Positions 8,081-36,994 of a stretch of 64,000 bases of DNA are shown one piece after another. Below the pieces are notes generated by a model, which saw only the letters and a list, made by a program, of their open reading frames with translations, ran no database searches and was not told where the DNA came from. Made by a program: the position numbers and the translations under genes. The stretch's first letter is position 1. Each line of letters opens with the position of its first letter. Location: contig JASJAO010000013.1 in NCBI GenBank assembly GCA_030066975.1, forward strand, positions 1 through 64,000, given 5' to 3'. Source of the stretch: Henriciella sp. (GTDB taxonomy: Bacteria; Pseudomonadota; Alphaproteobacteria; Caulobacterales; Hyphomonadaceae).

Positions 8081-8128
8081 TCATTGGTAATGATGAGGTC
8101 GGGAGTTCAATTCTCCCTCGCGGCACCA
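8081..8128 (+). other. 3' fragment of tRNA-Thr(GGT), candidate attR
   Basis: The fragment carries the anticodon loop TTGGTAA (8084-8090), the 3' half of the anticodon stem, a T-arm with GGGAG/CTCCC stem around TTCAATT, the acceptor strand TCGCGGC, discriminator A and CCA. No D-arm or 5' acceptor strand lies upstream, and the 5' side of the anticodon stem does not pair fully. This is the usual duplicated piece left at the far end of an element integrated into a tRNA gene. Confidence 0.82.
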
Positions 8129-9685
8129 TTTTTCCCTGAACGCTTTATTTTTGCCTAACACACTGAAAGGCAACGATATTTGGGGTTCCAAGAACCCACC
8201 CTCTCGACAGTAGGAAAGGTGTGCCGGGAAGGCCAATTTCAGCACTAAACGCTGTAGGTCTAAGCGATCAGTTTTCCAAAGATAACAAGGGCTTGCGAGG
8301 AACTGAACAGCGAGTTCAAACAAATCTCGTTTGGGGGTGCGTGGTTTGCTCAATTGCTCCATCTGCTCACGTACCACGCATTTGTCTTCTTCAAGGCCTT
8401 GAATGCGGTCTTCACAGGCCTTTTCGATCCTTGGATTGGTGGCTGTAACAATCTTATCCACGAGCGCTTCAATTTGCTTCTCATAGGCCGAGAGCTGCTT
8501 GCGCAAAGCGCTCAGCTTGCTCGCCGCTATATCCTTCTGCATCGCCCAGTAGTCCTCGAACATCATCTGCGCGATGCCCAGTAATTTGCCGTTAGGCTGC
8601 ACAGAGGACAGAAGCTCCACGAACTGATCTTCAATGACTTCCTTGCGAATAGACTTCCCGTATTGATCGCAGCTTTTGGTGCGGCAGCGATAATAAGGGT
8701 GGCGCTTGGTTTTCCCGGTACTCCATGCGGCAGTCAAAGGCACACCGCATGAGACGCAATCTACCGCCCCACGAAGCGGAAAATCATGATGAAGGTCTTT
8801 GCGGGCAGCAGCGTAAACCCGTCCATCAAGGCGGTCTTGTATGCGGGCAAAGTTGGCTTTTGAAACCAAGGGCTCGTGGACACCCTCGCGATAGGGAACG
8901 CCCCATTTCGGCATGCCGACATATCCGGCATAAAGCTTCTTTCGGAGCATCCGCACCACTTTGTATTGGCGAATCCCGCCACCGGGCAAATCCTTCGGGA
9001 ACTCAGGCTGGGACTCCAAGAACCGCGTGAGTTCAGCCTCAGAGCTGAAGCGCCCGGTTGCAAAGCCATTCAAGGCTTCTGTAACGATAGACGCTAGCGG
9101 TTCATCGCGCACCAGCTCTTTACCGCCCCCGCGTGCCTGCACGTATCTGTAGCCAATCGGAGGTATAGACTGCACCGCATAGCCAAGCTCTAATCGGGCG
9201 ATGCTCTTTTGTTTGGACTGGCGCGCATTTTGTTCGCGCTCTAGCTGGGCCTGTCCTGCGAGCATCAGCTCCATGAACTTGCCTTCTGGGCTTTCTTCGG
9301 GCCGGAAGTTTAGAAATTCCACGCGCACGCCACGTTCACGCAGCAATCGCCTCAGGATGAGATGATATTCAGCCTCGCGGGCAAATCGCTTGTGATCATC
9401 AAAGATCACCACATAATTTTTGCCGCTGTTTTTGTTTCGGTCCAGATGCGCGAGAAGCTGAACAATATCAGGGCGATCGAGTAAGGATTTCCCCCCTGAA
9501 ACGGTTTCTGTGAAAACGGCCTCTACGGGATATCCGTGGATGTCCGCATGTTCCCGGCAACGATGCTCCTGACTATCGAGACCACTGCCCTTGAGCTGTT
9601 TCTTATCGGAAATCCGGCAGCAAATGAGAGCTGTCCAAGATACCGGGGAGGCCGCGTGGTTTGAATTGGGTTCTAATTGCTTCAT
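8081..9685 (-). CDS. Large serine recombinase (site-specific integrase)
   Basis: A 534-residue recombinase expected to integrate and excise the element. The N-terminal resolvase domain (about 18-165) has the nucleophile Ser26 in CCRISDKKQ and the conserved Arg residues around DDHKRFAR. A recombinase domain follows (about 190-285), then a zinc ribbon with CVSCG and RCRTKSC (about 310-345) and a coiled coil (about 370-430), all typical of large serine integrases. The last 13 residues after WC are encoded by the tRNA-Thr fragment, not by the element; in the excised circle the frame would continue for 46 other codons. It overlaps the gene upstream by ATGA. Confidence 0.92.
   Translation of the reverse strand: MKQLEPNSNHAASPVSWTALICCRISDKKQLKGSGLDSQEHRCREHADIHGYPVEAVFTETVSGGKSLLDRPDIVQLLAHLDRNKNSGKNYVVIFDDHKRFAREAEYHLILRRLLRERGVRVEFLNFRPEESPEGKFMELMLAGQAQLEREQNARQSKQKSIARLELGYAVQSIPPIGYRYVQARGGGKELVRDEPLASIVTEALNGFATGRFSSEAELTRFLESQPEFPKDLPGGGIRQYKVVRMLRKKLYAGYVGMPKWGVPYREGVHEPLVSKANFARIQDRLDGRVYAAARKDLHHDFPLRGAVDCVSCGVPLTAAWSTGKTKRHPYYRCRTKSCDQYGKSIRKEVIEDQFVELLSSVQPNGKLLGIAQMMFEDYWAMQKDIAASKLSALRKQLSAYEKQIEALVDKIVTATNPRIEKACEDRIQGLEEDKCVVREQMEQLSKPRTPKRDLFELAVQFLASPCYLWKTDRLDLQRLVLKLAFPAHLSYCREGGFLEPQISLPFSVLGKNKAFREKWCREGELNSRPHHYQ
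8122..8133 (+). repeat. Left 12-bp direct repeat, attachment core
   Basis: GGCACCATTTTT includes the last seven bases of the tRNA fragment. The identical 12-mer occurs at 36976-36987. On the complementary strand it encodes part of E-K-W-C near the end of the recombinase. Confidence 0.72.
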
Positions 9686-10056
9686 GGCGTGCCTCCTTCT
9701 GAAACCAAAGGCACGACTTCCGCGCCGGAACTTCTAAAATCTTCGATGCAGGATTTCATTTGAGAGCATAACGCATCACCGCGCTCAATGGGGAGCACAG
9801 CTTCGGTGAATTGATGTTGTCCACAGGCTTGTTGGACAGGATGAATCTGAAAGCCGAGATCGACAAAGGAGGTTATTATGAGCCACAGCGCTTGTAGCAA
9901 TTCGAGCTTCTGCGTCTCGCTTAACTCCGCATCCTCTAGGTAGGGGCGGTACTTCTCTAGGCTAAATTCGATACGTGCCGATTTGTTATTAAGAACCCCT
10001 GTTTCCAATGGAGGTGGGGCATGTGTTGTTTCATATGTATGGTCGTTTTCATCCAT
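9682..10056 (-). CDS. Small protein coupled to the recombinase, unknown
   Basis: A 124-residue acidic protein with a helical core (ETQKLELLQALWLIITSFVDL) and a C-terminal half with two Cys. It overlaps the recombinase start by four bases, so it may be a directionality or accessory factor, as small genes next to serine integrases sometimes are. That role is inference; no DNA-binding motif is visible. Confidence 0.55.
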   Translation of the reverse strand: MDENDHTYETTHAPPPLETGVLNNKSARIEFSLEKYRPYLEDAELSETQKLELLQALWLIITSFVDLGFQIHPVQQACGQHQFTEAVLPIERGDALCSQMKSCIEDFRSSGAEVVPLVSEGGTP

Positions 10057-10102
10057 AGCGGTGATCCTTTTATTTCGTGTTTTTCATGTGCGCTCCTTTC
10101 CT

Positions 10103-10175
10103 CTTCTTGGGGCCACCACATCAGCGGCGGCCCACAAGAAGCGCTTTTGGCTTTTGGCCCGGATGTCTCCGGGCC
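10103..10175 (-). other. Two strong hairpins between operon genes
   Basis: GGCCCGGA/TCCGGGCC with a four-base loop (10156-10175) begins right at the stop of the upstream gene. CTTCTTG-GGGCC pairs with GGCCC-CAAGAAG, with one bulge (10103-10141). Neither is followed by a T-run on the minus strand, so they may process or stabilise the operon mRNA upstream of the gene that starts at 10056. Confidence 0.5.
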
Positions 10176-10750: not shown

Positions 10751-10829
10751 GTTTGTCTCCTTTCGTTTGGTTTGGGCGGAGTGAAAAAGGATTGGACTCT
10801 ACAACTTAAAATAGAACAAAGCAAGAACA

Positions 10830-11309: not shown

Positions 11310-11581
11310 CGTTGCCACCGCCGTGTATCGAGTATGACAACCATCGGGCATTTAGGAGGTAAATGTGGAACGTCTTCTAATATGCCGCGTGAGCCAACGT
11401 AGTCGCAACGCACATAGGTCTTATCAGAATAGTGACCGATATAAGAATACGACCACCTCAAATGCGGCCCGACAGGGTTGACGAGACTCGCGATTACCAG
11501 AATGATGAGCCAATATCTAAAGCCACCACTTAAGGCCTTGAAAACAAGGCCTGCAAGAGTTGGTTTATCCAACCTATTCAT
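11306..11581 (-). CDS. Small membrane-anchored protein of the transfer operon
   Basis: A 91-residue protein with one membrane helix (about 23-38, YWLIILVIASLV) and a C-terminal domain, probably periplasmic, with two Cys (VRCDYV and PPKCPM) that could form a disulfide. It overlaps the coupling-protein stop by eight bases and the next gene by four. Not recognised; a partner of the coupling protein or an exclusion factor is possible. Confidence 0.5.
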   Translation of the reverse strand: MNRLDKPTLAGLVFKALSGGFRYWLIILVIASLVNPVGPHLRWSYSYIGHYSDKTYVRCDYVGSRGILEDVPHLPPKCPMVVILDTRRWQR

Positions 11582-13394
11582 AGGGCCTCCTCCTTAAGTC
11601 GCGTGTGAAGCGTAGCTGGGTGGGGAGAAGCCATTTTTTGCCGTGGAACGGATCAATTCCAACAATGAGCCTAAACGCGTCTATTGCAGCGTAAGGAATG
11701 ACAGAGACTAGAGCAGCCATATTGCGCCGGATGAAAAGAACGGCGTCATCCGTTCTTCTCAGCTCATCGGCAGTCATAAGAGGGCGACCTTCTTCGCGGT
11801 AATCTACACCATCAATGCTAAGACCACCGTTGGCACGATCCCCGCGTTTGCCGCGCGTCATCACACTGGTCTCACCCATCTTGGATACGACATATTCCAA
11901 GACTTCTTTCTCACGCGTACCCGGCAAGTAGAGTTGGATTTCCGCTTCTGAAAGCAGGGTAGACAAGATCTCTTGCGAGTAGGCGTCACGAAATGAGCTG
12001 AAGTTCTGCAAGAACAGGATCATGCGGCAGTAAGCACGTGCAAAAGTCAGAAGCTTTCCGAGATCGTGGATGAGGAAGTTTGCACACTCATCAGCTATCA
12101 AATACGTGGGGCGATGCTTGTTAGGGTGGCGCTTCCACTCCTGCATCGCACACCATTGTATGTGTGAAATCAGCGGGCCCTGCGCTTTGAGTGTATTAGG
12201 GTCAACGACCAGAAATACGGTGGTGGGCCTTTTGCCTTCCTTCTGATCCGAAAATCGGAATGTCGATTTGTTCGTGATTTTATTGCTACGAGTAGCGATC
12301 CCGAATTTTGATATCATCATCTGTTGCGCCCCTTCCAAGAAGGGATCGGCTGTTCGAGAGTCGGTGTCTGTCAGGAGTTTGACAACACGTGCGCACATAG
12401 CACGATAGCGACTTATGAAATCGATGACATCCTGAGGATCATGCAAGTCGTTTTTTGCCCACTCACACTCCTCTAGCGGCATACTCGCATATTCTGGGTG
12501 CTCAGGGTCCTCGCTTGTCGGAAGCCTGCCACACCCCCAGAGTGCATGACGCAGCATGGAATCACGATCCATCAACATCGTGGCTGAATCGCCCATCGTG
12601 GCTGTTTCGCCATCAATCAATCGGGTTGTGAGGTTTGTCCAAGATATAAGAAAGCGGCTGCCATTCCGAAAATACGTATTGTCGGTCTGACCGGAATTGG
12701 ACTCTGCAGGTTCAGGGTAGATTTGCTCGGCTTCTTCTTCGAGCAATTCAAACACTTCAAGAATGCCATCTTTGCGCCTGAAACAGTCCGTAATGATATG
12801 CGCCGGGTTGTAGCAATCGCTCTCGCCTAAAATGTCGATGTTGGCGTTTGCAAAATTTAAAATCCGAACGGTCTCACCCTCTCTACGAAGTGGTTCCGCA
12901 AGCTGACAAGCGAGGTTCCCTGACTTAAAATCTAATACAAGCTTCGATGAGGGGATTGTGAGTATGGTGGGTATAACGATGCTCGATGACTTGCCGGATG
13001 AACTGGTACCGCACACCATAGCGCTGCCTTCTATCTGACTGATGATCTCGGTGTAGCGCCCCGGTTTTTCTTCAAAGGCGCCCCAGTAAGGGCCTAGCTT
13101 TTTTGGCTCATAGTCGTCTCCCAACTCTCTGAGCGCCTTCACAAGCCCGGCTGTGCCTTTCAGGCCAGTGGTTTGTTGTGCGCTTAGCCACTCAAAAAGA
13201 TCCCCAAAGCCTTTTGTAATTTGAGCCAAACCGGAAAAGAGGGCGATAGTACACATGCCCAATGCGAGCGATGGCACCAGAATGAATTCAGCGCCGATCA
13301 TCGCGGGGCCAGTTTTTGAATACACCCAATATGCAGCGCCGCCGATAACCAAAGACGGCAATAACCGCCCCTGACGTTCTGTTTTACCGCTCAT
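11574..13394 (-). CDS. VirD4/TraG-type conjugative coupling protein
   Basis: A 606-residue ATPase that should bring the relaxase-DNA complex to a type IV secretion channel. ATG 13394 forms an ATGA overlap with the preceding gene; a longer in-frame start at 13478 would lie deep inside it. Two N-terminal membrane helices (about 12-57) are followed by Walker A GTSSSGKSS (129-137), the LVLDFKSGNLA segment and Walker B YLIADECANF, with the NFSSFRDAYS and EREVLEY-like regions of the family. Family members usually sit with VirB genes; none are here. Confidence 0.92.
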   Translation of the reverse strand: MSGKTERQGRLLPSLVIGGAAYWVYSKTGPAMIGAEFILVPSLALGMCTIALFSGLAQITKGFGDLFEWLSAQQTTGLKGTAGLVKALRELGDDYEPKKLGPYWGAFEEKPGRYTEIISQIEGSAMVCGTSSSGKSSSIVIPTILTIPSSKLVLDFKSGNLACQLAEPLRREGETVRILNFANANIDILGESDCYNPAHIITDCFRRKDGILEVFELLEEEAEQIYPEPAESNSGQTDNTYFRNGSRFLISWTNLTTRLIDGETATMGDSATMLMDRDSMLRHALWGCGRLPTSEDPEHPEYASMPLEECEWAKNDLHDPQDVIDFISRYRAMCARVVKLLTDTDSRTADPFLEGAQQMMISKFGIATRSNKITNKSTFRFSDQKEGKRPTTVFLVVDPNTLKAQGPLISHIQWCAMQEWKRHPNKHRPTYLIADECANFLIHDLGKLLTFARAYCRMILFLQNFSSFRDAYSQEILSTLLSEAEIQLYLPGTREKEVLEYVVSKMGETSVMTRGKRGDRANGGLSIDGVDYREEGRPLMTADELRRTDDAVLFIRRNMAALVSVIPYAAIDAFRLIVGIDPFHGKKWLLPTQLRFTRDLRRRPYE

Positions 13395-14380
13395 GGCTGG
13401 TTTCCAGATACGGTCAGAACGCTTTGCTTGCTCAACGCATCCGAATAGACAGAGAAAATCTGATCGAGATGTCGCCAAGCCCCTTCGGGATCGTCAACAT
13501 AGGCATCAGCAAGGCCTAGAAATTGGCTTTCGGCACTCTGAGACTTGTCGCCAAGCCATATAAATATGGTCTGAACATCGCCTTTTTGCGCCTGCGCCTC
13601 AGACCGTATCGACCTATCACCCGGTGCTCCGTCTGTAAGGACGATCAAGGTTTTTATCACGTCATCGGGCCGTGTGTTTAGCCGTCGATACGCCGCCGCC
13701 ATCGCAGTAAATAAATTCGTTCCGCCGTTAGCCTGAATCGCGGGGATTGAAACGTTCCTGCTGTTGCACGCTAAAGATGGACTGCCATACCAAGTATGCT
13801 CACTTTCAAACGCTAGCGCTTCACAGCGAAAGTGCTCAGGCAATTCATCGTAGAGTGCATTTGCAGCACTGACGACTTGAGGCATGTAACCATTCATGGA
13901 ACCAGAAGCGTCGAGCATAATTACAACCGACACAGGCAAGTTGGTGTTTGTGAATGGCGATAATCTGAACGCTACATCATTCGCATTTTGATCAATCAGA
14001 TGAATATCATTTGGCCTCATGCGTCTTGGCATAGAAGTCCGCCCATCCTTCAAGGATAGGACATAGCGTGGCTCTCCATCGGCAGAATCTTCAATGCGTT
14101 TGACGGACAAATCACCCAAGCGAGAAATGAAGGTCAAACCTGCGTTCGTGTCCGTCACACTCCTATTTAATCGAGGGTCACCTGTCTTTGAGACGTGTTC
14201 AACAATTCCGAACTGAGGGCCGTACAAATCCAGGTCTTGTTGAAATTGCTCCACAGGCGTGAGGCTCAGATTAACCTCACCCTTAGGCTCTAAATCTGAT
14301 ACTAGAATCTGCGCATCTGAAGATGCCGACAAGCCCAAAACGCCGATCAGTACAGAAGCTGTTTTTATCCGAACTCTCAT
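13391..14380 (-). CDS. Secreted von Willebrand factor A domain protein
   Basis: A 329-residue protein with a signal peptide (about 1-24, cleavage near SDAQ). The VWA domain begins near residue 150 with a complete MIDAS motif DASGS (157-161), a GGTNLFTA segment supplying the conserved Thr, and LIVLTDGAPG. Such domains bind protein ligands through a metal ion; an adhesion or mating-contact role at the cell surface would suit a gene inside a transfer operon, but this is inference. It overlaps both neighbours by four bases. Confidence 0.82.
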   Translation of the reverse strand: MRVRIKTASVLIGVLGLSASSDAQILVSDLEPKGEVNLSLTPVEQFQQDLDLYGPQFGIVEHVSKTGDPRLNRSVTDTNAGLTFISRLGDLSVKRIEDSADGEPRYVLSLKDGRTSMPRRMRPNDIHLIDQNANDVAFRLSPFTNTNLPVSVVIMLDASGSMNGYMPQVVSAANALYDELPEHFRCEALAFESEHTWYGSPSLACNSRNVSIPAIQANGGTNLFTAMAAAYRRLNTRPDDVIKTLIVLTDGAPGDRSIRSEAQAQKGDVQTIFIWLGDKSQSAESQFLGLADAYVDDPEGAWRHLDQIFSVYSDALSKQSVLTVSGNQP

Positions 14381-15102
14381 TGTTCAACTCCCGTCTGTGG
14401 AGCAGCACGTTGAGCTGTGAAGTTGATCCGTGTGCGGGTTTCATCCGGTCTGAGAATTTCAACCGTGTGGTACTTTAGCTCTGAAATTTTATCCTCATTC
14501 AGATAATCCCAAAGCGGCGCATATTGATCTCTGTGAACCATCATCGCTGAAAAATCGGCGCGTTCGGCCTCACTGAGGATGGTTGCCAACTGAATCCCCG
14601 CACTCACAGTCTGGGGGACATGAACCGACGTCACATTATCGCACGGGGATGGAACATCTACGAATGGGCCGATATGAACAATGCGGATGCTCTCATACCC
14701 ATGAATAGCAATATCGCGGCTGATATTGGCGTAGGTGCGTCCCAGATCGTTACATCTGCGATCAAACCCTTGGATCTGTGAAAAAATAAAGCCGCCATCG
14801 CGCTCTAACTCATACGCTGAACCAGAAAATACAGCGTTCGTCGCATCGGTTGTTTTGACGATCTGGATGCGGTGGTTTCTGCGCCGATCACCAGAGGTAT
14901 TTTCAATCTCATTTTGAAGTGTGTGAACAAAAGCTGCATCCACAATAGGTTTGTCACTCGCCGGATATAGGCCTTCGCTCTTTGAAACGACCACATAGGT
15001 CACTTCAAGGTTGGGTTTGCGCGAGAAGAGTTGCGCTGACGCGCCTTGGATTGGGCTTAAAGCCGTGGCTGCGAGAAGAAGAGAAATGGAAAGGTATTTC
15101 AT
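14377..15102 (-). CDS. Secreted protein paired with the VWA protein, unknown
   Basis: A 241-residue protein read from ATG 15102 with GGAG eight to twelve bases upstream. It has a signal peptide ending near QGASAQ. The mature part has phosphotransfer- or VWA-like alternation of strands and helices (LEVTYVVVSKSEG, SIRIVHIGPFVDVPS, DFSAMMVHRDQYAPLWDYL) but no visible active-site motif. Its tight coupling to the VWA gene suggests the two work together in the periplasm or at the surface. Confidence 0.55.
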   Translation of the reverse strand: MKYLSISLLLAATALSPIQGASAQLFSRKPNLEVTYVVVSKSEGLYPASDKPIVDAAFVHTLQNEIENTSGDRRRNHRIQIVKTTDATNAVFSGSAYELERDGGFIFSQIQGFDRRCNDLGRTYANISRDIAIHGYESIRIVHIGPFVDVPSPCDNVTSVHVPQTVSAGIQLATILSEAERADFSAMMVHRDQYAPLWDYLNEDKISELKYHTVEILRPDETRTRINFTAQRAAPQTGVEQ

Positions 15103-15119
15103 AACCGATCTCCGTTTGC

Positions 15120-15653
15120 TTAGATTTTTGGGGAATGAAAAAGACGGGCGGTCACCGCCGCGAAAACGAGATTGATGCTTGAAAACAGCAATGCCAGGGG
15201 AAAGGCGCGTTCTGCTTGCCACATTAATTTTTCGCGTTCAGCATCGACTGCGAGTTGATTGCAGAATGGGTTATTCCCATCGCAATCAATTAACTCTTCC
15301 AGACCAACTTTGGCCTCGGTCGTAAGATTATAAAGCTCAAGGCTGAATACGAAGATGAGTGCAAGAAGTCCGAGGCAGAACCAAACCCGGTTCATCTTTG
15401 TCGCAAAGAACGTTGCTGAATTCGAAAATAAATCGGACGCAAATGCCGTCTTAAAGACAAAGACTGGTAGCAACGCGATCAGCATCGCCTGCATCAATGC
15501 GAATACGTCATTCACGTGCAGATCAGGAAAAATGTAGCTCAGGATCGGCAGAGGGATATTATCGTAAACGCTGATTACTTTGGAGCAGATCGCAAGGAGA
15601 AGCAGGATCATTACGACCTCGCACACGACCGCTAGGATCTTAAAAATACGCAT
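15120..15653 (-). CDS. Four-helix membrane protein, unknown
   Basis: A 177-residue protein read from ATG 15653, with GGAG nine bases upstream. Membrane helices lie at about 4-22, 35-72 (one or two), 90-108 and 145-165. A loop with two Cys (LIDCDGNNPFCN) before the last helix should face the periplasm and could form a disulfide. It lies between a transporter-like gene and the secreted pair in the same operon. Confidence 0.55.
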   Translation of the reverse strand: MRIFKILAVVCEVVMILLLLAICSKVISVYDNIPLPILSYIFPDLHVNDVFALMQAMLIALLPVFVFKTAFASDLFSNSATFFATKMNRVWFCLGLLALIFVFSLELYNLTTEAKVGLEELIDCDGNNPFCNQLAVDAEREKLMWQAERAFPLALLFSSINLVFAAVTARLFHSPKI

Positions 15654-15654
15654 G

Positions 15655-16104
15655 TCAAAATTCTCCATTGGCGTTCGCAGCCAAAATGGATGCGGTTGCT
15701 TGATTTTCAGGAAGTGCGAGCAGCGCTGATGCGATCAGCATGAAGACGCAGGCCGCCCACTTTTGGACGTTCATTGTCTCGCCAAACAGCCACACACCAG
15801 AGGCCAAAACTGCTAGCGTCATGGCGCAGGTTGTCAGAAGAAATCCGACTGCCAGTCCGTCCCTAATGACCTGCAAATACAGAATATTCGCCAGCGTGCA
15901 GACTGCGGTACCACCGACAAAGTAAGTGAATTTGCCCGTCTCGGCGGTTTGTTTGAATAGGATCTCGCCCCAGACGAATAGGGGCGTAGAGACCATGAGA
16001 CATCCAACAAGGGTGGCTTCTTTTGGCAAGGCTACGATGTCAGAACTTAGGTACAGCTCTGCTATTCCCATCTCAGATGGGGTGATCGATTTTTGAGTTT
16101 TCAT
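15655..16104 (-). CDS. Small four-helix SMR/EamA-like membrane protein
   Basis: A 149-residue protein with four hydrophobic stretches (about 30-48, 60-78, 86-108 and 117-136). The third and fourth (GFLLTTCAMTLAVLASGVWL, then FGETMNVQKWAACVFMLIA) follow the pattern of the small multidrug resistance/drug-metabolite transporter superfamily, including the FGE turn between helices. The conserved membrane Glu of helix 1 is not obvious, so transport is uncertain. First gene of the leftward operon that runs to 8081. Confidence 0.55.
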   Translation of the reverse strand: MKTQKSITPSEMGIAELYLSSDIVALPKEATLVGCLMVSTPLFVWGEILFKQTAETGKFTYFVGGTAVCTLANILYLQVIRDGLAVGFLLTTCAMTLAVLASGVWLFGETMNVQKWAACVFMLIASALLALPENQATASILAANANGEF

Positions 16105-17642: not shown

Positions 17643-18254
17643 TCAAACCGCAATCTTATACAAATCCAGCACCTCTTCAGGCAGGATGCCGACATAGCGC
17701 AAAGTCTCTTCCGGCGTTTTGTGTCCCAGTGCTTTCATGATCAGTTCCACAGGCTGCCCGTATGTGATGCGCATATGATACGCCCACGTCTTACGAAGCG
17801 TATGCGATCCGTAGTGGCCCTGCAAACCGGCCTCTGCGCACCAGCCTTTCACCAAAGAGCAGCACGTGCTCACGCTCAAAGCATCCCCTGTTTTGCGTGA
17901 AGGGAAAAGCGGTGCATCTTTATTGGGGGCCGGATGCTCCGCCAGCCAGCGCGACAAAGACGGGAACACCGCCTCATTGATCATGACGGCCCGGTATCGG
18001 TCCTGCTTGCTCTGCTTGAGATCAATGATCGTACCGGGAAACGCATATTCAACCTGCCTGACCGTTAGTGAGAGCAACTCATTCATACGATACGCCGTGT
18101 TAATGCCCATGACGAACATCAAATGGTTTCGAGGGCTGGGCAGAAGCTTGCGCTTGATATCGGCAATCGCGGTGCGGTCCCGGATCGGGTGAACTTTAAT
18201 TGAAGACCCTTTCTTTGGGTGATTAGGGTTTTTGCAAATCTGCGATGCAGCCAT
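17643..18254 (-). CDS. Short tyrosine recombinase (catalytic domain only)
   Basis: A 203-residue protein read from ATG 18254 with AAAGGA upstream. It has the tyrosine-recombinase active-site set: Arg56 in TAYRMNELL, a Lys near 73, HTLRK (His151, Arg154), His178 in LGHKT and nucleophile Tyr187 in TLRYVGI. The N-terminal core-binding domain is absent. Stand-alone catalytic-domain recombinases occur on plasmids and mobile elements, where they may resolve dimers or move small cassettes. No att site for it can be named here. Confidence 0.85.
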   Translation of the reverse strand: MAASQICKNPNHPKKGSSIKVHPIRDRTAIADIKRKLLPSPRNHLMFVMGINTAYRMNELLSLTVRQVEYAFPGTIIDLKQSKQDRYRAVMINEAVFPSLSRWLAEHPAPNKDAPLFPSRKTGDALSVSTCCSLVKGWCAEAGLQGHYGSHTLRKTWAYHMRITYGQPVELIMKALGHKTPEETLRYVGILPEEVLDLYKIAV

Positions 18255-18489
18255 GATGCGTCCTTTATGTCCTCGCGCACAATATTGCGAGAGCATTATA
18301 CATAATAAATTAAATGCAAGCACTTAAATGTCGGCATTTTTGTTTATATTTTTGAATGATTACTATTCCATTTTTCTTAGTATTACTGAAAAAGATGAAT
18401 AATTACAAGCTTTTTAGCGCCGTTGCTTTTCGATATACGCCCGTGCTCACGGTGTGAATAACCAAGCAAATACAATGCGCTAAACCTCA

Positions 18490-23824: not shown

Positions 23825-24279
23825 ACCTAATAGAATAATTACCTAATTATTAGGAGCAGTTGCACCGTATTAGCAATCGTAGTCATTGCTATGCTCGTCC
23901 TAACACACAAGTCAAATGGTACGAGTGTTGATGCTCCCAACCCTGACTAGGTTACAACGGCCAAGATCCGTTCAGGAATGATTTCACGCCGCTCAATTTC
24001 GTTGTATCTTAAACAATAAAGTTAGTTTCCTGCATTTATATAGTGTTGCAATGCGTATCGCCGTCAGCTCGCTATCCCAAAGCTCGCACGGCACACAAGA
24101 AATGCAGATCAATTTGATACGATTTCCCTTTATAAAATGGAGGGATATTCAAATAAAATTTTCTCTTTAATCAAATCAGTAATATTATTTTACTTGGATT
24201 GCATAATTACACATTCTTGCTGCGCAAGACTATTGATGATAACGCATTAGCCATAATTGGTGGAACTCTGGGGGATACA
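23825..24279. other. Divergent intergenic region with right inverted-repeat arm
   Basis: About 455 AT-rich bases between the divergent NACHT and lipoprotein genes, expected to hold both promoters. CCAACCCTGACTAGGTT at 23937-23953 is the right arm of the inverted repeat that brackets the NACHT gene. Nothing else stands out. Confidence 0.5.
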
Positions 24280-25170
24280 ATGCGTTCATATAGTTTAATC
24301 TCGCTCCTATTCATGGCTATGGTCGCCTCTTGCGCTTCAAGCAATGCGCAGAGCCGCGGCGGATCAGTCACCGAAGCCACGACAAGGCATACGTCCTTCA
24401 TTGTAACATCAACCAATACTTGTTCAGACATAGTTACGCCACCGGATAATGAAACTGGGTTATCCCTACTCATAGCACCACTCGTCAGCTTCGCTGCTGA
24501 CAGCGTATTCGGAGCTATCAATGCCTATGTCGATCAGCGGAAAAAGGATCTCAATGGTGCGTTCCTAGCCAGCGGTGCGATTATGCAAAATCCCGGCAAT
24601 GTGAACTGCATCGGTATCGTTCGCGGAACGATCGGTGAAGCAAATTTCAACGATCGCCGAAAAGGGAAAATCCCTCAGCCTTCGTTGCAGGCGCTCGGAC
24701 TATCTGACTATCCCGACTTTATGCTCCTTCTGAACTTAAATTCATCGGGCGACTCGCTCGAGATAACGGCGGAGCATCTACGTTACGCTTCCACATCAGC
24801 TCGTCGAAATGGAAGCAGTCAAAAGAACGTAGCCGTTGTACTGGGCTTTTCGAAGACACCGATTGAATCGGCGTCTGGCATAACAAAGGACTCCACGATT
24901 GCTCGTGCTCCGATCAACCTGGGGAAATTGTCTATCGGACGGTATTATGAAGCGGATACTCTTACCGACGTTAGTTTTGGATTGCCGTTGGGAAATGACG
25001 ACTGGAAAGCACCGATATCTATTACCGCCTCTGTTGTCGAAAGCGAGGAGCCAAGTTTGGCGTTGACGGTCCTTTCAAAAGCTTGGGAAGATAATAAGGG
25101 CGATTTTCAAACTGCTTTTGAAGAGCTCTTGAAATCGGCTCTTGGTTCTGATGACGATGACTCAAATTAA
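24280..25170 (+). CDS. Lipoprotein, unknown, upstream of a secreted protease
   Basis: A 296-residue protein read from ATG 24280 (GGGGG six bases upstream; an earlier in-frame start at 24199 lacks a signal-like beginning). The signal sequence ends in a lipobox MVASC, so it should be anchored in a membrane by the Cys near residue 17. The mature part is strand-rich with two further Cys. Not recognised. It overlaps the protease gene by about 20 bases, which implies joint expression. Confidence 0.6.
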   Translation: MRSYSLISLLFMAMVASCASSNAQSRGGSVTEATTRHTSFIVTSTNTCSDIVTPPDNETGLSLLIAPLVSFAADSVFGAINAYVDQRKKDLNGAFLASGAIMQNPGNVNCIGIVRGTIGEANFNDRRKGKIPQPSLQALGLSDYPDFMLLLNLNSSGDSLEITAEHLRYASTSARRNGSSQKNVAVVLGFSKTPIESASGITKDSTIARAPINLGKLSIGRYYEADTLTDVSFGLPLGNDDWKAPISITASVVESEEPSLALTVLSKAWEDNKGDFQTAFEELLKSALGSDDDDSN

Positions 25171-26785
25171 ATGCAGTCTCTTATCGTTCATGATTTACGG
25201 TTTCGCTTTATCCCTGATTCTACAAGCTCAAGCGCAACCGAAGATCACATATGATACGTGGACGCCGCCCGAAACTTCTAAACAGGTTTTGGATGGCCAA
25301 TTTGATGAAACGAAGAAACTTATTGCTGAGTATGAATCGACTCGTACAGCGTTAGAAAACCTAGAACTTGAAATTGATGACCTTAGGTCGAGAACATTCT
25401 TGTGGATTTTCCCAAATCAAGAGGCGCAAGAACGAGCCGAAGAAATGTCGGCAGAGCTCTTCCAAATGAGCCCCGTGGCCAAAACGCAGTTGCATGCATA
25501 TGAGACTATCCTCGCTCAGTATTCGGCGAACCTTGTTGGGCACTCTTCAGCTGGTTTGTTCGTCAAAATGGACGAACTCGCACCTGCCACTAGAGATGCG
25601 TTTCGGACGCAACGGCTCGTTCAGTCGCGAACCGTGTCTAATGATTCCGAGGGCGTTATGGCGATCCGGCTGTTAGATGTCGAACTGGAAGAGAATGTCG
25701 AACTTTCTATCACGAACCCAATATCAGGCTACACTGAGACTTTTGAGTTAGACGAAATCGTAAATTCTAACGGCACATCCTCTTTTTTTGAAGGCCGCGA
25801 AGTCACGATTTCTCTGATTGATAATAGAACTATTCGACAATCTCCGATTGTCTTAGATTCGCTGATTCTGGAACGCATCTACATGGTCCCCAGTGAGGCA
25901 GATCAATACAATGCGCAGTTCGAGGACCAAGAAGACACAAACGTGAGCCCAGTCCCCGAGAGCTCACCCGTCGCACAAACGACATGCGGGCGAACCGATG
26001 ACCGAGTTCAGAAAAAAATTGAATTCATCGGTCGTGTTTCATTCTTGGTGGAACAAAAAACGACAGAACCATATTGCACGGCCTTTATGCTCGAAGGCGG
26101 CTTAGGGGCTACTGCGGGGCACTGCCTTGATACAGATAGGTCTTTGATTAGAGTAGAGTTCAACGTTCCGGATTCAAGATTGGGCAGCCCCAAACTTGGA
26201 AGCCTTGAAGATGTTTACCCACTTGTGATCAATTCCATTAAGTGTCGGCAATGCGAAGAGGTCGATGATCCTGAGCGCGGTCTTGATTGGGGAATATTCC
26301 AATTTGGACATAACCTAAGTGGATCTAGTAAAGACACTCCATTTGACGCTTACGGCTCAGGGTTCTCGTTCGCAGAGGATGCCACGAACCAAGATGAAAT
26401 AGAAATTGCTGGTTACGGCATGCATACGAACCGCAAGACGACACGAACACTTCAAAGTGCAACTGGGGAAATGATTAGTATCACAAAAGTCGAGGATGCC
26501 CCGGTAGCGCGCGTGCTAAATCATAAGGCTGATACGAATTCCGGATCATCTGGGTCTCCAATTCTCGCAGTCAAGACAATAACTACGGGCGAAGAAAAAT
26601 TGGTAGCTATCGGGATTCACACGCATGGAGACTGCCACGAAACCAACAACTACGGAACGTCGTTTCAGAATGGGGAGTTATCAAAACTGTATGAAGAGAT
26701 GACTGCCAACGACGTCAACGAACGCGGCACGTCTGACAACGAAACCGAGGCTGAAATCACCGCAATGTCATTCACCCCAAGCTGA
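25151..26785 (+). CDS. Secreted trypsin-like serine protease
   Basis: A 544-residue protein with a signal peptide (hydrophobic FMIYGFALSLILQAQAQ). The C-terminal half is a chymotrypsin-fold protease: His in ATAGHCLD, Asp in LDWGIFQF and nucleophile Ser in NSGSSGSPI, the expected order and spacing, with paired Cys nearby. The N-terminal 280 residues hold a helical region and a strand-rich segment of unknown function, perhaps a recognition or regulatory part. ATG 25151 is one of several close starts (25142 TTG, 25157 ATG). The substrate cannot be inferred. Confidence 0.78.
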   Translation: MTMTQIKCSLLSFMIYGFALSLILQAQAQPKITYDTWTPPETSKQVLDGQFDETKKLIAEYESTRTALENLELEIDDLRSRTFLWIFPNQEAQERAEEMSAELFQMSPVAKTQLHAYETILAQYSANLVGHSSAGLFVKMDELAPATRDAFRTQRLVQSRTVSNDSEGVMAIRLLDVELEENVELSITNPISGYTETFELDEIVNSNGTSSFFEGREVTISLIDNRTIRQSPIVLDSLILERIYMVPSEADQYNAQFEDQEDTNVSPVPESSPVAQTTCGRTDDRVQKKIEFIGRVSFLVEQKTTEPYCTAFMLEGGLGATAGHCLDTDRSLIRVEFNVPDSRLGSPKLGSLEDVYPLVINSIKCRQCEEVDDPERGLDWGIFQFGHNLSGSSKDTPFDAYGSGFSFAEDATNQDEIEIAGYGMHTNRKTTRTLQSATGEMISITKVEDAPVARVLNHKADTNSGSSGSPILAVKTITTGEEKLVAIGIHTHGDCHETNNYGTSFQNGELSKLYEEMTANDVNERGTSDNETEAEITAMSFTPS

Positions 26786-29957: not shown

Positions 29958-30190
29958 ACCAAATTTTTGTCTCCGCACGCATCATTCGGAAAAAACGTAT
30001 CGCCGGATGCGTGTAAGTTCAACGAGTTGCAACGAAGATTGCATCAAAATTTCATACAATTGCGCGGCGAAGCCAATATAGCGGGCGAGGTTGCATTTTA
30101 ACCGGTTTGTGATGGCTCATAATTGCTTGGGTTTGCGGCGATATTGCATGCGAGATTTGAGACCGTTTGGGCATCCAAAGGAGATGCCTC

Positions 30191-30688: not shown

Positions 30689-30805
30689 GACGATGCTTAG
30701 CGTCACATCAATCTCATCTTTGCCAGATGCACTTGCAACTGTTGACAGCAATTATCACGCCAGCCTCCAATAGACGGACCTTTTTACGACCGTATGGGCG
30801 CGAAA

Positions 30806-32362
30806 TCAGATGTAAAATTTGAAGGGTTGTCGCTCCGCGTCCTTGGCGCTGCCCATGACTAGAACATCGCCAACTTTTTTCGCGAACCGGATAGTTACCG
30901 GTTCGCTGTCACTATAATTACAGGCATTATAATTGATCTTTGTCAGCCCCATAATATCGGTCAGCACCCGTTCTAAATCAGGTTTTCCATTGGTCGCCCG
31001 CAAGATAGTCACAAAAAGCGGGTTTGGCGTTTCGGGCCCAAGATAGGTGTCGATGCGCGGGGCATATCCAGAGGTCCACAGATAGGCATCGCTGTCATCG
31101 AGCAGCACTGCCGTGCCGCGTAAGGTTGGATAATCGCCGTTTCTGTAGAGTTTCATTTCCCCGTGGCTGGGCTTGATCCGAACTCCGACAATATTGGTGC
31201 CTTCTGGCGCCACCTCTTCAAACGCCTCCCATTCTTCATCGTTGAATTTCGTGGTGCCATGAATGAAGAGTTCTTTGGGGTATTCATCAAACCGTGTGCG
31301 GTAGGTTTCAAGCACCGTCTCGATCAGCGCTTTGGCGCCCGCCTTGCTCAAATGAAACTCTTTGCGCTCGGTTAGCCACGGGCCGTTGGCACCACGAAAC
31401 ACCACGCCGTCGCCCTCGCTTAGAAACATCTGCGCGGCGCAGCAGGCATGATTGTCAGCATGGTTCGGGATGAGCTTGAAGATCAGTCCGACATAACACA
31501 CCCCCAGGCGCATATCGGCCAAGCGCCAGGGCGGGTTCGATTGCGTTTTATAATAAAGCCCCGTCGCAAGGTTCCAGGCCACCGTTGCGCTGTCTTGCGT
31601 GCCGCGGATCGGTTTGCCTGCTTTGTTTAAAAACGCGTCCGGCGCGAGCGTCGTTTCCCGGATTAGCTGAGACGGCGCCCCGAGCGATAAAAGCCGCGCT
31701 TTGATCTGGCGATGAAAATCCGGAACATCGTCGAAGATCGCCTCATCACTTGTGTCTACAATCCCAGCAAGCAGTGGCATGTCGCTACGTTTAGCTTGGC
31801 TTTTGACATGCTCGCCCGGGGTGAGTACGACTTTGCGTTTCTTCCCCATCTGCGGGCGGCAGCGCTCAAACACTTTTTCAGGGACGACAAAGACCCAAAC
31901 ATCCACCCCGCGCTCCTCATTTTTCAAATGCGCTTCAATGGGCTCGAGAAACATCTCCACGGTTTTCGCCACCGCTTCATGGTGATTGGCGATCGCCGTC
32001 ATGGCCTCAATCTCGTCGAGGTCCAGCGTGTAGGACACGAGGCGTTCCGGATCTAATTTGATCCCATAGGCTTCTGCAAACCCTGGAAAGTCAGACAGAT
32101 GTAGACGGACATGCTTGTCGCGCGGGCCGCGCGGTGGGATTTTAACGCCTCGGACAAGGGTCTTCGCCCAGCTTTTGAAATATCCGATCCCATCTTCTGT
32201 GCCGATCACCCCGACCGTGATCTCTTGGCGCTGAGCCTTTGCCTGCGGTCCATATAGAAACAAACCATCCTTTGGGTGATCCGACATCTGACCATACCCG
32301 AACCCAAGGCGGGGCTCGTCAATATGCAAGGTCGCGAGCGAGGTTTCAGGAAACTCTGTCAT
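30806..32362 (-). CDS. Short prokaryotic Argonaute (SPARTA subunit)
   Basis: A 518-residue MID-PIWI protein read from ATG 32362, with AAGGAG at good distance; it overlaps the TIR-APAZ gene by 17 bases. The PIWI half has the family signatures [27 protein letters not shown] and the C-terminal [19 protein letters not shown]. The usual catalytic Asp positions are not Asp (CY in GVCYVG, T in HGTTKF), so it should bind but not cut nucleic acid, as in characterised short Argonautes. In SPARTA systems RNA-guided recognition of plasmid or phage DNA activates the partner TIR NADase, causing NAD loss and cell death. Confidence 0.9.
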
Positions 32363-33788
32363 CGTCGGACTCCTTCTCAAAAGCGAGCTGATCGTCTTCC
32401 TCCGCGTCTGGTTCTGTATCGTGCACAACTGGCGGACCGCTCAGCGTTGTCAGATCCTCTTCCTCGGCTTCTTCATTTTGGACGAAGACTTGCCGCGCGG
32501 TCTTAGGCGAGGTCACTTGTACCGGCATCGCATCTACTGTGATCGACCCGCCGCCTCCGACCGGTAGATCGACGTAGGGACTGTCCCCCGCCAACAGCTC
32601 GAGGAAGGCCATTAACCGACCATGCCAAGCCTTGTTGCGCCACGACGAACAGATCGAGCGGCGGAGGCGGTGCTGGTCCTTTTTCTCGCCAATCACCTTC
32701 AGCGTGTTTTTGTCTTCTTCCGAAAACAAAACCCGCGCCTTCATCCGGTAATGAGGCCAGGGAAAGAGGCTCGGCTGGGCGGACACGCCATAGGACCAGA
32801 TCTTGCCCCGCGCCTTATTGCGGAGAACCGACGATCGTCGTTCGCCTTGGCGCCCCCAGGAGATGCGCTTGTTCAGGTCGATCTGGCTTGCATCTACATG
32901 ATGGGCCGCGCCCGTCGCATAAGCATGGGTGTAAAACCCTTTGGCGCTCATATGTTTTTCCCAAGCCTGCCGAAACAGATTGACCACCATATTCTTGGCG
33001 TCGCGCGCTTCAATGCCCATCGTCTCAGAGCCATGCTCCATGAAGTTGCTCAGAGCAGTCTCGGCTTTGGCCTCAAACCGTCCCACACTGAGGAAATGCT
33101 CTTCAAGATCAAATGGTGAGGCGAATGTCAGCAAACCCCGCTCATGGACAATGACCGGGAGGACGAAATCGGCCGCCCGCGCCTTTAATGTTTCTACGTC
33201 AAAGGGACCTGTCGGCTCCAAAAGATAGAGCTTGTCCGGCGCAGACAGAATACGCAGCCAATTGGAGGTCAGAACTTCCGGTTCATCTTCAAGGCTGACC
33301 GCTTGGCGGCGCTGATAGGCCGCCCAATTGGGATTGATCTCGCCCTTGGATGCCTTGGGGACGTCTTGGCGCTCTAGCGATTTAAGAAGTTCAGCGAGCC
33401 CTTCCGCCCACCTATTTTCGAAATTGATATACTGCAGCTCACCGATCCCGAAGACCTTTTTGAACCGCTTCATTTTCAAGGGCAGAATAAAGTTTGGGTC
33501 CTTAAGCTCCTTGGCGAGGTCCTCTGCGATGCCGATCTCTTCGATCACGCCACGGCGCGCCAGAGTGTCATCGGAGCAGCAGAGCAGCATTTTAACCGCT
33601 TCCGTTTGCAACGTGTCGGTAATTTTTCTGCGCCACACATCACCCGTGTCGAGGCTCAGAATATCAGCGAAGACCTTATACCCTTCTGATTCAAGTCTTG
33701 GCGCCAGCCACAATGCAAAGGGATCATCTCCAGGGGTCGCCTTGGAAATAAAGATTGTTTCTCGAATAGTTGCCGAACCGTTTGCCAT
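32346..33788 (-). CDS. TIR-APAZ effector (SPARTA subunit)
   Basis: A 480-residue protein. The N-terminal TIR domain (about 11-130) starts [19 protein letters not shown], contains [11 protein letters not shown], and has the likely NADase Glu at 83 or 84 in [13 protein letters not shown]. Residues about 190-420 form the APAZ region that pairs with short Argonaute ([31 protein letters not shown]). The C-terminal 60 residues are very acidic, a tail reported to matter for keeping such complexes in check. Gene order (TIR-APAZ, then Ago, overlapping) is that of known SPARTA operons. Confidence 0.9.
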
Positions 33789-34277: not shown

Positions 34278-34946
34278 ATGAGAACCAACCAATTCATTTG
34301 CGGTGATGCCGCGCACGTTTTGAAAGATGCACCTAACGAAAGCGTTGATCTTGTCGTTACAGACCCGCCTTATCTTGTGAAATACAAAGACCGCTTGGGG
34401 CGAACCCTTGCAAATGACGACAACCCGGATGCCGTTCTAAGCGTCTTTGATGAAATCTACCGCATTCTAAAACCCAGTAGCTATTGCATATCTTTCTATG
34501 GCTGGAATGCCGTGGCAGAGTTTGCCGAGCGCTGGAAATCACTTGGCTTTGCCACGGTAGGCCATATCGTTTGGGTCAAATCCTATGCGTCCCGGCAAGG
34601 TCATACACGATACAGGCACGAAAGCGCATTTGTGCTTGCAAAAGGCTGGCCCCAGAAACCCCAAAACCCAATCCCGGATGTGCTGCCTTGGGAATATACG
34701 GGCAATAAACACCACCCTACAGAAAAAGCCGTTAGCGTCATCGAGCCTCTAATTAAAGGCTTCTCCAAACCGGGTGACGTGGTGGTTGATCCATTCTCCG
34801 GTTCCGGCTCAACCTCAGTTGCAGCAGCCCTGCATGGGCGCGATTATATCGGCATAGATGTTGAAGAGCGCTATTGCGCCCATGCCAGAGAGCGCATTGC
34901 GCGTTTGCGCCAGATGCAATCCGAAGAGTTGCCGACCGCCGCATGA
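34278..34946 (+). CDS. Orphan DNA N6-adenine or N4-cytosine methyltransferase
   Basis: A 222-residue methyltransferase. Catalytic motif DPPY (29-32) comes before the SAM-binding DPFSGSGSTS (about 170-180), the beta-class order, and HHPTEKAVSVIEPLI is the conserved motif between them. No restriction endonuclease gene lies nearby, so it is probably an orphan enzyme that protects the element in new hosts or regulates it. A well-placed AGGAGG precedes ATG 34278; the ATG at 34273 opens only a two-codon frame. The specificity cannot be read from the sequence. Confidence 0.88.
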   Translation: MRTNQFICGDAAHVLKDAPNESVDLVVTDPPYLVKYKDRLGRTLANDDNPDAVLSVFDEIYRILKPSSYCISFYGWNAVAEFAERWKSLGFATVGHIVWVKSYASRQGHTRYRHESAFVLAKGWPQKPQNPIPDVLPWEYTGNKHHPTEKAVSVIEPLIKGFSKPGDVVVDPFSGSGSTSVAAALHGRDYIGIDVEERYCAHARERIARLRQMQSEELPTAA

Positions 34947-34948
34947 AA

Positions 34949-35176
34949 CTATCCGCCAGAGATATCGTAGAAACGCGTCTTTTTACGGTTTAAGCGGTGA
35001 TCTGGGTGGTTGAGCGCGTGATGTGGGTTGCCCTGCAAAAAGGCCTTATACTGAGGCCAGTAGCTATCTGGCGGGACTAAACCGAAATCTGTCCATGCGG
35101 ACATTGGCAATCGGACCTGCGGTCTATCCAATGGCTTTGAAAGCTCGGGAGGGCGTTTGAGCCAAGTGTTTGTCAT
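34949..35176 (-). CDS. Small protein coupled to the relaxase gene
   Basis: A 75-residue protein whose start overlaps the relaxase stop by four bases (ATGA). It is Pro-rich and basic with an LVPPDSYWPQYKAFLQ segment, no membrane helix. Not recognised; translational coupling suggests a mobilization accessory role. Confidence 0.55.
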   Translation of the reverse strand: MTNTWLKRPPELSKPLDRPQVRLPMSAWTDFGLVPPDSYWPQYKAFLQGNPHHALNHPDHRLNRKKTRFYDISGG

Positions 35177-36390
35177 GGCAAGACCTCCGGCCCAGAAAAC
35201 CGCCGCTGATCGTACTCCAAGCGTGAGCGTTCACGACCATAGCTGCGCCGTAAGCTGATCTTGAATAGAGCCAAGCGTTGACGCTGCTGCAAATGCTTGA
35301 ACACAAGCGCGTCTTTGGCCTTTGCATCACGCTTTTGGCAGGCTTGAGCGTCTAGCTCATTCTGCGTCTTTATTTGCCTGTGTTTGCCGTTCAAACGGTC
35401 CCAAAAGCCTGCCACACCTTTTCTGAAACGGCTTTGACGCTTCCGGCTTTCCTCAGCCTGACGCTTTTCAAGTTTGTCTTTCAATGTCTGGCGTTCACAT
35501 CGCTGCTGATCCACCAATGCGTTGCGGCGCATTTCATACTCAGAGTTTGTCTTCTGAAACTGTTGCTCAAGTTCATCTTTAAGACGGTTGATGGTATCGC
35601 CCATCTCAGAAGCCATTTGCGTTTTGACCGTATCGACATCAGGCAAATCATCCATATCGCCTAGCCGGGAACGGACATCTTTCGTCTTTACACCTGCTTT
35701 TCGGGCTATGGCGAAGACCTCACCCTGTGCATCTACCGCAACAGGACGGTCTTTGTTGCCTCGCGCAACCCGATATCCACGTTCCTCAAGCGCATGAATA
35801 AAGGCTGCTTTTGAATCTGAGAGCGCCCACGCATCCTCAAACTCGCGTTTGATCTCATTGGGGTGTCTTTGGATGCGCCGCGCCTGCTGCCATTCCGCTA
35901 GTGAATAGTTCCGCGGGTCCCGGTTCGCACGATTGGCAAGGCCAGCCGGCATTTTCCAACCATGTTCAATGAACAGATCTCGTGAAACAGGCTTTAGCTT
36001 CTCTCGATCAAAAGACATTTGAATGGCTTTCATCTCCACCACATTGATGCGCGACCACACACAATGCGCATGGCGGCGGCCTTTCTTTTCATGAAAGACG
36101 ATAGCGCGGGGCTGATCCGTCAAACCAAGCTTGGCCTCAACCCGCTCAATGGCTGCTTCAAATGCATCAGTGGGAACGCTCTGATCTTCCGGTGGATTGA
36201 GGCTTAGCGAATATAAGAACTGCTTACAGTGTGTTCCCCGGCTAATCGCCTCAATCTCCTTGAATGCTCCATGAAGATCATCGGAGACAAACCCGCGAAG
36301 CTCATACACCTCGATATGCTCATTCTCCGGCTTCATAAGATGAACCGCTAAATCCGCCGCGCCGCCGCGTTGATTACCGACCAGCATCAT
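35173..36390 (-). CDS. mobA: Relaxase (MobA/VirD2-like nuclease)
   Basis: A 405-residue protein read from ATG 36390, which forms ATGA with the mobC stop. It should nick the transfer origin and lead the strand into a recipient. The metal-binding three-His motif is clear: His100, His107 and His109 in FHEKKGRRHAHCVWSRIN. Candidate catalytic Tyr residues lie at 29 and 60. The C-terminal half (from about 225) is a charged coiled-coil region rich in Arg, Gln and Glu. The coupling protein at 11574-13394 would be its partner. Confidence 0.88.
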   Translation of the reverse strand: MMLVGNQRGGAADLAVHLMKPENEHIEVYELRGFVSDDLHGAFKEIEAISRGTHCKQFLYSLSLNPPEDQSVPTDAFEAAIERVEAKLGLTDQPRAIVFHEKKGRRHAHCVWSRINVVEMKAIQMSFDREKLKPVSRDLFIEHGWKMPAGLANRANRDPRNYSLAEWQQARRIQRHPNEIKREFEDAWALSDSKAAFIHALEERGYRVARGNKDRPVAVDAQGEVFAIARKAGVKTKDVRSRLGDMDDLPDVDTVKTQMASEMGDTINRLKDELEQQFQKTNSEYEMRRNALVDQQRCERQTLKDKLEKRQAEESRKRQSRFRKGVAGFWDRLNGKHRQIKTQNELDAQACQKRDAKAKDALVFKHLQQRQRLALFKISLRRSYGRERSRLEYDQRRFSGPEVLP

Positions 36391-36839
36391 GGGGTTTTCA
36401 TTCCTAAGGCTGACTGTAGCGCGGCTTTCATCGCGAATATTGCCCGGCAAGCCTCTCTTAGCTCTTCCTCAAGATCGGGCGTGACGGGCAATGCGCCGAT
36501 GTTTGCCGCCTTGGCAATCTGATTGAGGTTGGAGGGCAGGCGAGATTGCCCAAGCTGTCCCAACACTTGCGCAAGTGCAGCGTGATCGACATTCGGAGCG
36601 CGGCGTTTTCGGGTCAAACGCTGAAAGATGTGCGGTTGATCCTCAAACAGCTTTTTGCGGATGTAAGCCGCCTCAGACAGGCTCCCGGCCTCGCGTTTGA
36701 GGATAGCGCGTTCTTCCTCCGTAAAGCGGATGGAGTAAGGCGGAGGAGATTTCCGCCTGCGAGCAGGACGGATTGTGATCTCGCCACTATGCGCCTCGCT
36801 GAAACGCTCTCTGACTTTGTTGTTTCCGGGCCGCCTCAT
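36387..36839 (-). CDS. mobC: MobC-like mobilization accessory protein
   Basis: A 150-residue protein. A basic N-terminus is followed by a ribbon-helix-helix-like stretch (YSIRFTEEERAILKREAG, LSEAAYIRKKLF) and the MobC hallmark LPSNLNQIAKAANIG near residue 105, then a helical tail. MobC proteins bind the transfer origin and help the relaxase open it. It is coupled to the relaxase by ATGA, and its own start overlaps the stop of a small upstream frame in the same way. Confidence 0.85.
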   Translation of the reverse strand: MRRPGNNKVRERFSEAHSGEITIRPARRRKSPPPYSIRFTEEERAILKREAGSLSEAAYIRKKLFEDQPHIFQRLTRKRRAPNVDHAALAQVLGQLGQSRLPSNLNQIAKAANIGALPVTPDLEEELREACRAIFAMKAALQSALGMKTP

Positions 36840-36994
36840 AGTTCTGGCCCCTCGAAAATTTCCGTTTCAAGAAGGACAGATTCAAAGCCAGCGTCTCGAA
36901 GCTGTTGGCCCCATTCTTCTAGGGTCAGGACGAGATCGTGATAGGTTTCAGCAGTTCCAACATCTACGTCTCCGGGGCACCATTTTTGGTTCAT
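36836..36994 (-). CDS. 52-codon frame across the right attachment core; candidate severed recombinase tail
   Basis: The frame reads MNQKWCPGDV, then DVGTAETYHDLVLTLEEWGQ and on to FEGPEL, and its stop overlaps the mobC start as ATGA. The sequence after KWC is helix-like and coding in character. Its ATG lies outside the element, seven bases beyond the 12-bp core, so the start belongs to flanking DNA (another in-frame ATG is at 37009). In the excised circle the codons KWC coincide with KWC of the recombinase and the frame continues without a break, so this may be the recombinase's own C-terminus cut off by integration. Confidence 0.55.
   Translation of the reverse strand: MNQKWCPGDVDVGTAETYHDLVLTLEEWGQQLRDAGFESVLLETEIFEGPEL
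36976..36987 (+). repeat. Right 12-bp direct repeat, attachment core
   Basis: GGCACCATTTTT, identical to 8122-8133. To its left lie mob genes, to its right chromosomal sequence. Confidence 0.72.

Follow-up and report, generated by a model that had tools for sequence, protein, structure and literature searches.

What becomes of a recombinase gene when the site at which the enzyme recombines lies within the gene itself? This question is raised by a stretch of 64,000 nucleotides from Henriciella sp. (contig JASJAO010000013.1, positions 1 to 64,000; hereafter the window). An integrative mobilizable element in the window carries one of its two attachment cores within the open reading frame (ORF) of its large serine recombinase. 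Recombinase, attachment sites, relaxase and mobilization genes occur together in the element, with MobC scoring below the Pfam cut-off. The recombinase combines catalytic, Recombinase and zinc-ribbon domains, and its sequence matches A118 integrase chains (E about 3e-4). We suggest with good confidence that the attachment site of the circular form (attP) lies inside the coding sequence of the element's own recombinase. Integration would then swap the C-terminal tail of the enzyme and part mobC and the relaxase gene from their operon.

The core, GGCACCATTTTT, has two exact copies in the window, at 8122 and 36976, as found by a search of the window sequence. An earlier note on this DNA had placed a 12-bp core within the recombinase, and its coordinates and counts were correct. 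The recombinase ORF (8081-9685, minus strand) has the C-terminus ...FREKWCREGELNSRPHHYQ followed by a stop. The 13 residues past WC are coded within a 3' fragment of a transfer RNA (tRNA) gene, tRNA-Thr. This origin of the 13 residues had also been claimed and was borne out, as 50 of 50 positions of the fragment at 8081-8130 agree with a stretch of the intact tRNA-Thr(GGT) region, which lies on contig C15. An addition to the earlier note is that the left side holds only this 50-bp 3' fragment and no intact tRNA gene. The fragment at the element and the intact copy on another contig suggest an earlier rearrangement or element. At the right end, the frame 36836-36988 on the minus strand reads QKWCPGDVDVGTAETYHDLVLTLEEWGQQLRDAGFESVLLETEIFEGPEL followed by a stop, and the other two frames contain stops. 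The residues K-W-C stand in the same phase on both sides of the element, hence the joined ends form one frame. This frame continues for 46 codons, and its stop overlaps the mobC start as ATGA. Reading both ends thus confirmed the joined frame that had been predicted, with the same 46 codons and the same shared ATGA.

The recombinases of related elements end in a similar context. A 3' end of a tRNA called by ARAGORN adjoins the recombinase in 91 of 102 distinct copies with the C-terminus in hand. Eight amino-acid types are represented (Arg 31, Thr 19, Leu 14, Ser 8, Met 7, Val 6, Ala 4 and Tyr 2). All 91 recombinases are open through the tRNA 3' end and extend 3 to 112 codons further, with a median of 33. 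With a fixed gene end, at least some copies would be expected to stop ahead of the site. Homologues all ending near WC had been named beforehand as evidence against the fusion; the 91 with a called tRNA read past the core instead.

The two halves share a phase. Phase was called from the longest identity run anchored at the tRNA 3' end in 57 recombinase and tail pairs other than that of the window, including 12 class-wide pairs and G099; five pairs lack a called tRNA. Among the 52 scorable pairs, the phase is the same in 49, tied in 3 and different in none, and the tail frame reaches back to the core without a stop in all but one of the 49 same-phase pairs (48). One common phase is used by 88 of 91 recombinases. 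The recombinases of the window (phase 0) and of G099, G115:C4 and G779:C13 (phase 2) deviate. Each of these four goes with a tail shifted alike, compared to 0 of 48 ordinary pairs (Fisher 4e-6), and three deviants against 48 ordinary pairs remain without the window. The deviant tails were inspected for 5 of 7 in G115 and 3 of 3 in G779. The halves are kilobases apart when integrated, and matched phase shifts are thus sensible only if both are read together.

Joined frames also occur naturally. In a tandem array of G075, the recombinase of one element is joined in frame to the tail and mobC of its neighbor (...FCNLKKKMVLPEGESLNTLFDELAAFEEQLKPYAYELEELGL), and the sister copy at the tRNA reads ...FCNLKKKMVPRERIELSAS. 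Frames in G119 and G345, with no tRNA called nearby, align with the G075 frame across the junction at an identity of 38% or just above (E 4e-13 for G119 and 1e-13 for G345). A junction breaking the frame would have counted against the fusion, and these natural junctions keep it. At the sequence level, the changed recombinase end and the fusion frame proposed in the earlier note are thus supported by the 57 other pairs and three natural joined frames.

Tails are conserved in place across relatives of the element. Relaxase matches were found in 32 of 105 genomes of the host's family, its own included. The search listed 43 places, and 30 of these loci as well as one more were read. The MobC motif is present in 28 of these 31 loci (window included), and a tail frame runs into the mobC start in all 28; three loci lack the motif. 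The majority consensus of the tails is MxxxxGxxxNxLFExLxxWExQL, which includes NxLFExLxxWExQL. A profile built from 27 tails of the host's family matches 77 of 398 genomes of the order, of which 51 are outside the family. The recombinase query matches 78 of the 398, and both are found in 55 genomes (Fisher p 5e-31). Across the class, the recombinase was detected at E <= 1e-40 in 22 of 385 genomes, the host's own included, and 17 of the 21 others have a tail at E <= 0.1. Pairing was performed in both directions for 54 recombinase and 50 tail places, with places on contigs without a partner left out. A tail lies within 60 kb of 48 of the 54 recombinases. In 44 of these the nearest tail is found upstream on the same strand, and the four exceptions include two joined frames. 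An earlier, upstream-only pairing had all 47 tails on the same strand. The tails are short and variable in length, and in 90 of 131 the stop overlaps the following start codon as [AGT]TGA. Because relatives hold conserved tails in this position, the window arrangement is more than a chance occurrence.

Further copies were noted alongside. The host genome has two additional related recombinases, at tRNA-Arg and tRNA-Leu, and three additional relaxase/tail loci (loci across G000:C7, C16, C17 and C24). Elsewhere (L162, L163, L164 and L165), tails occur in pairs on a single strand with ~1-5 kb between the two, a spacing suggestive of arrays of decayed or very small elements.

At the level of codon substitutions, the tails evolve as protein. 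Differences at codon positions 1, 2 and 3 number 213, 169 and 380 among 27 non-overlapping pairs, and nonsynonymous changes are depleted about 4.6-fold (nonsynonymous to synonymous ratio 0.22, p 2e-43). Tail divergence is associated with recombinase divergence after correction for MobC (partial r 0.33, p 0.0005) and with MobC divergence after correction for the recombinase (partial r 0.11, p 0.045), based on 39 of 40 elements tried. The tail follows the recombinase more closely than MobC despite adjoining mobC. AlphaFold2 was run on the natural C-terminal frame of G075, using an alignment with six other tails. The model shows long helices of coiled-coil type, a low-confidence stretch at the core and a single tail helix of ~24 residues, with a mean predicted local distance difference test score (pLDDT) of 78.5 and a predicted template modeling score (pTM) of 0.61. 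A fold search was weak: nothing matched at E <= 0.001, and a serine integrase ranked best. A degradation tag of the type known from mycobacteriophage BPs was considered and set aside, as the tails by inspection end unlike such an ssrA-like tag.

The gene order of the element gives the joined frame its context (Table 1). The minus-strand run of ORFs from 16104 to 8081 includes seven overlaps and two gaps (79 and 118 bp), and mobC, the relaxase gene and the 75-codon ORF occupy 36839 to 34949. The leftward order described in the earlier note, from 16104 to the recombinase and elsewhere from mobC to the 75-codon gene, is as claimed, and its proposal of an operon split by integration is supported at the same level. 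A terminator or promoter between recombinase and mobC had been raised as an argument against such an operon, and the joined ends leave no intergenic space.

Table 1. Features of the element and its ends in the window.
Feature	Position	Strand	Details
Integrative mobilizable element	8122..36975		28,854 bp with one core counted; 12-bp direct cores at ends; recombinase, coupling protein, MobC and relaxase within
Left core GGCACCATTTTT	8122..8133		Within recombinase ORF
Right core	36976..36987		Exact second copy of GGCACCATTTTT
tRNA-Thr(GGT) 3' fragment, local target remnant	8081..8130	+	Antisense codes last 13 residues of integrated recombinase
Large serine recombinase, integrated form, 534 aa	8081-9685	-	Resolvase, Recombinase and Zn_ribbon_recom above Pfam cut-offs; phrog_95 integrase
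Predicted circle-form recombinase tail, 46 codons + stop	36836..36975	-	Frame match; conserved tails of relatives at same place
mobC, NikA-like, below Pfam cut-off	36387..36839	-	Start overlaps tail stop as ATGA
Relaxase, MobA/VirD2-like nuclease domain	35173..36450	-	Domain match
75-codon ORF	34949..35176	-	Overlaps relaxase end; no family match
124-aa gene	9682..10056	-	ATGA overlap with recombinase start; matches in 48/57 related recombinase loci
Coupling protein	11574..13478	-	T4SS-DNA_transf, TraG-D_C
Other ORFs of leftward run	13391..16104	-	VWA-domain protein 13391-14380; others without Pfam match

In the excised circle, the recombinase gene would be full length and comprise the catalytic, DNA-binding and coiled-coil regions, a short linker coded by the core, the C-terminal tail and the stop overlapping mobC. 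One gene run would extend from 16104 through the coupling protein, the 124-aa gene, the tailed recombinase, mobC and the relaxase to the 75-codon ORF. Such an operon would have translational coupling into mobC and the relaxase, and mobilization proteins might be produced chiefly once the element has excised or has entered a recipient. Integration at a tRNA 3' end would move the tail together with mobC and the relaxase to the far end of the element, and the integrated recombinase would end in whichever peptide the antisense strand of the tRNA codes. In the integrated state, the mobC start is 137 bp from the core and the intervening DNA is coding, which leaves little room for an element-borne promoter. 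The mobilization genes are thus probably expressed mainly from the circle. Because the integrated enzyme has an arbitrary end, the tail would be dispensable for excision, if excision occurs, and selection would act in the circle. The job of the tail might therefore be specific to the circle and most likely favors integration or links the recombinase to the mobilization proteins. Two forms of the recombinase follow from the sequence, and they may differ in activity. A more tentative extension, which we consider possible but doubtful, is that the recombinase reads its own state, with the circle-only tail setting integration, the loss of the tail suiting excision, and the mobilization operon being armed and disarmed in the same step.

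The tail could alternatively have no tie to the recombinase and be a separate small protein or a leader of mobC. Its translation would then begin at the core or ahead of it while the element is integrated. The adjacency to mobC with overlapping start and stop in 90 of 131 tails would fit such a role, and in many tails the base ahead of TGG makes an ATG, GTG or TTG. In the window, an in-frame ATG stands a few codons ahead of the core, in flanking DNA. However, the core has no in-frame start in the four phase-deviant elements, and their tails are still in the phase of the recombinase. The tail also tracks the recombinase better than MobC, and none of the 91 recombinases closes before passing the tRNA end. 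We regard a separate protein as improbable. Much the same low probability applies to a real joined frame in which the amino acids of the tail are irrelevant and serve only to couple mobC translation to the recombinase. Frequent overlaps of the ATGA type and tails that are short and variable in length are what such coupling would produce, yet the depletion of nonsynonymous changes in the family and the NxLFExLxxWExQL consensus argue for constraint on the peptide. For the divergent tail of the window, which the family profile misses, coupling alone is less improbable. Conservation could finally reflect recombinase binding sites in attP DNA rather than coding, as the tail starts at the core, the expected place of an attP arm. 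Substitutions fall mostly on third codon positions of the tail frame, though, and this explanation has a negligible probability.

Several observations weigh against a tail exchanged by integration. Most phase agreement is shared descent, and only the four deviants test the joint frame. For three of the four deviants, recombinase and tail lie on different contigs, and the tail was chosen by core match among the several in the genome. The tail of G608 is not open back to the core. All three joined recombinases (G075, G119 and G345) are damaged further up, hence they demonstrate the junction rather than a working product; no intact fused copy was seen. A MobC-like frame follows only the G075 joined frame, with none in the stretch read for G119 and G345. 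A tail match is absent in 23 of the 78 recombinase genomes of the order and a recombinase match in 22 of the 77 tail genomes, 4 of the 21 genomes outside the order lack a tail, and the one-base overlap is missing in 41 of 131 tails. A single promoter-like match lies beyond the right end (37186-37159, minus strand; 0.5 expected by chance), and flanking transcription into mobC is possible.

The tail of the window itself is divergent. Against a profile of the other tails it scores E 1.8, worse than a chance window frame (0.34). It is the single unrecognised member among 27, the 26 others being recognised at E 0.0023 or better when left out, and its phase is unusual as well. The profile result makes an exchanged tail slightly less certain. 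A search of the 105 genomes with this sequence alone found one other place, interrupted by three stops. This match (G033, E 0.004) shares its strand with a recombinase remnant and is 6 kb upstream of it. The best non-self match in the host's own genome (E 0.14) falls on the tail of a different element and precedes a relaxase by 0.6 kb. Both matches are weak hints of family membership. The window may carry a diverged or replaced tail. Homology of this tail is not established by sequence alone, and its assignment to the family is based on position, frame and mobC overlap. These same three features are what the sequence shows for the window. For the family, the sequences show position and frame, conservation of the tail and selection acting on it, phase shifts matched between the two halves, and joined frames that occur naturally.

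Parts of this arrangement have precedents. Archaeal 'suicidal' tyrosine integrases of SSV type have attP within the integrase gene, so that integration alters the integrase, and recombinases disrupting their own gene are called exclusively archaeal in a review (PMC8371274). The element shares an attachment site within the integrase gene. According to the same review, integration leaves the SSV-type gene in two pieces, int(N) and int(C), and a second, complete integrase is presumed to be required for excision (PMC8371274). Here, in contrast, the enzyme is a bacterial serine recombinase whose body is kept whole, and only the end past the core would be exchanged. In mycobacteriophage BPs, attP lies in the repressor gene; integration alters the C-terminus of the repressor, and its two forms have different functions (PMC4557955). 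An attP inside a gene and a C-terminus changed by integration are common to both systems, and two forms of the protein follow here from the sequence. The BPs gene encodes a repressor with an ssrA-like degradation tag on the extension (PMC4557955), whereas the gene here encodes a recombinase. In Tn916, the transfer genes lie at the far end, and transcription from the main promoter extends into them only once the element is circular (PMC11658703). Gene order and frame would fit a similar logic here. Terminators and antitermination stand between promoter and transfer genes in Tn916 (PMC11658703), unlike the junction inside one coding sequence here. The integrase promoter of ICEKp1 switches between integrated and excised states (PMC13023037), which resembles the state-dependent integrase expression proposed here but changes the promoter and not the protein. 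Fusions of serine integrases with recombination directionality factors can set the reaction direction in cis through the fused peptide (PMC5737554). These fusions are man-made, whereas the C-terminal addition here would be natural and gained or lost by recombination. Regulated gene integrity was reportedly treated by Mageeney et al. in 2020.

In the literature searched, which was mostly outside subscription journals, we found no account of a conserved tail being exchanged in this manner by a serine recombinase of bacteria. If true, the exchange would provide a bacterial example, and a widespread one, of a recombinase coding sequence edited by its own reaction, a situation that the review calls exclusively archaeal (PMC8371274). 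It would provide elements with a simple means to sense the circular versus the integrated state, and it suggests, in a form open to testing, how direction and the timing of mobilization might be controlled in some serine-integrase elements. Annotated C-termini of such recombinases would then be antisense tRNA, with the true end about 4-44 kb away.

Free or otherwise integrated forms were searched for in several collections. Fourteen PLSDB plasmid records carry distant recombinases, every one under 60% identity; the top five by E-value and 7 of the 14 overall are from Alphaproteobacteria. None of the 14 records has a tail, and no match was found in IMG/VR. One short match appeared in the collection of genome contigs. 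The plasmid pPDL2 was considered as a natural circle and set apart by description, its integrase being given as a 328-aa phage integrase (PMC3516476). Family scans of the window proteins turned up no mating-pore family, with no dedicated screen made.

The 124-aa gene next to the recombinase has no match in Pfam, NCBIfam or PHROGs, and its matches in relatives were counted at E <= 0.01 among 57 recombinase loci scanned. It is a candidate accessory or directionality factor. The element also carries cargo. A TIR-APAZ-like protein and a short prokaryotic Argonaute form a pair at 30806-33788 on the minus strand, which we take to be SPARTA-like. A NACHT-domain protein and a trypsin-like protein beside another ORF (21143-26785) are possibly further defence cargo. 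A tyrosine-integrase-like ORF of 226 aa (17643-18323, minus strand) also lies within the element.

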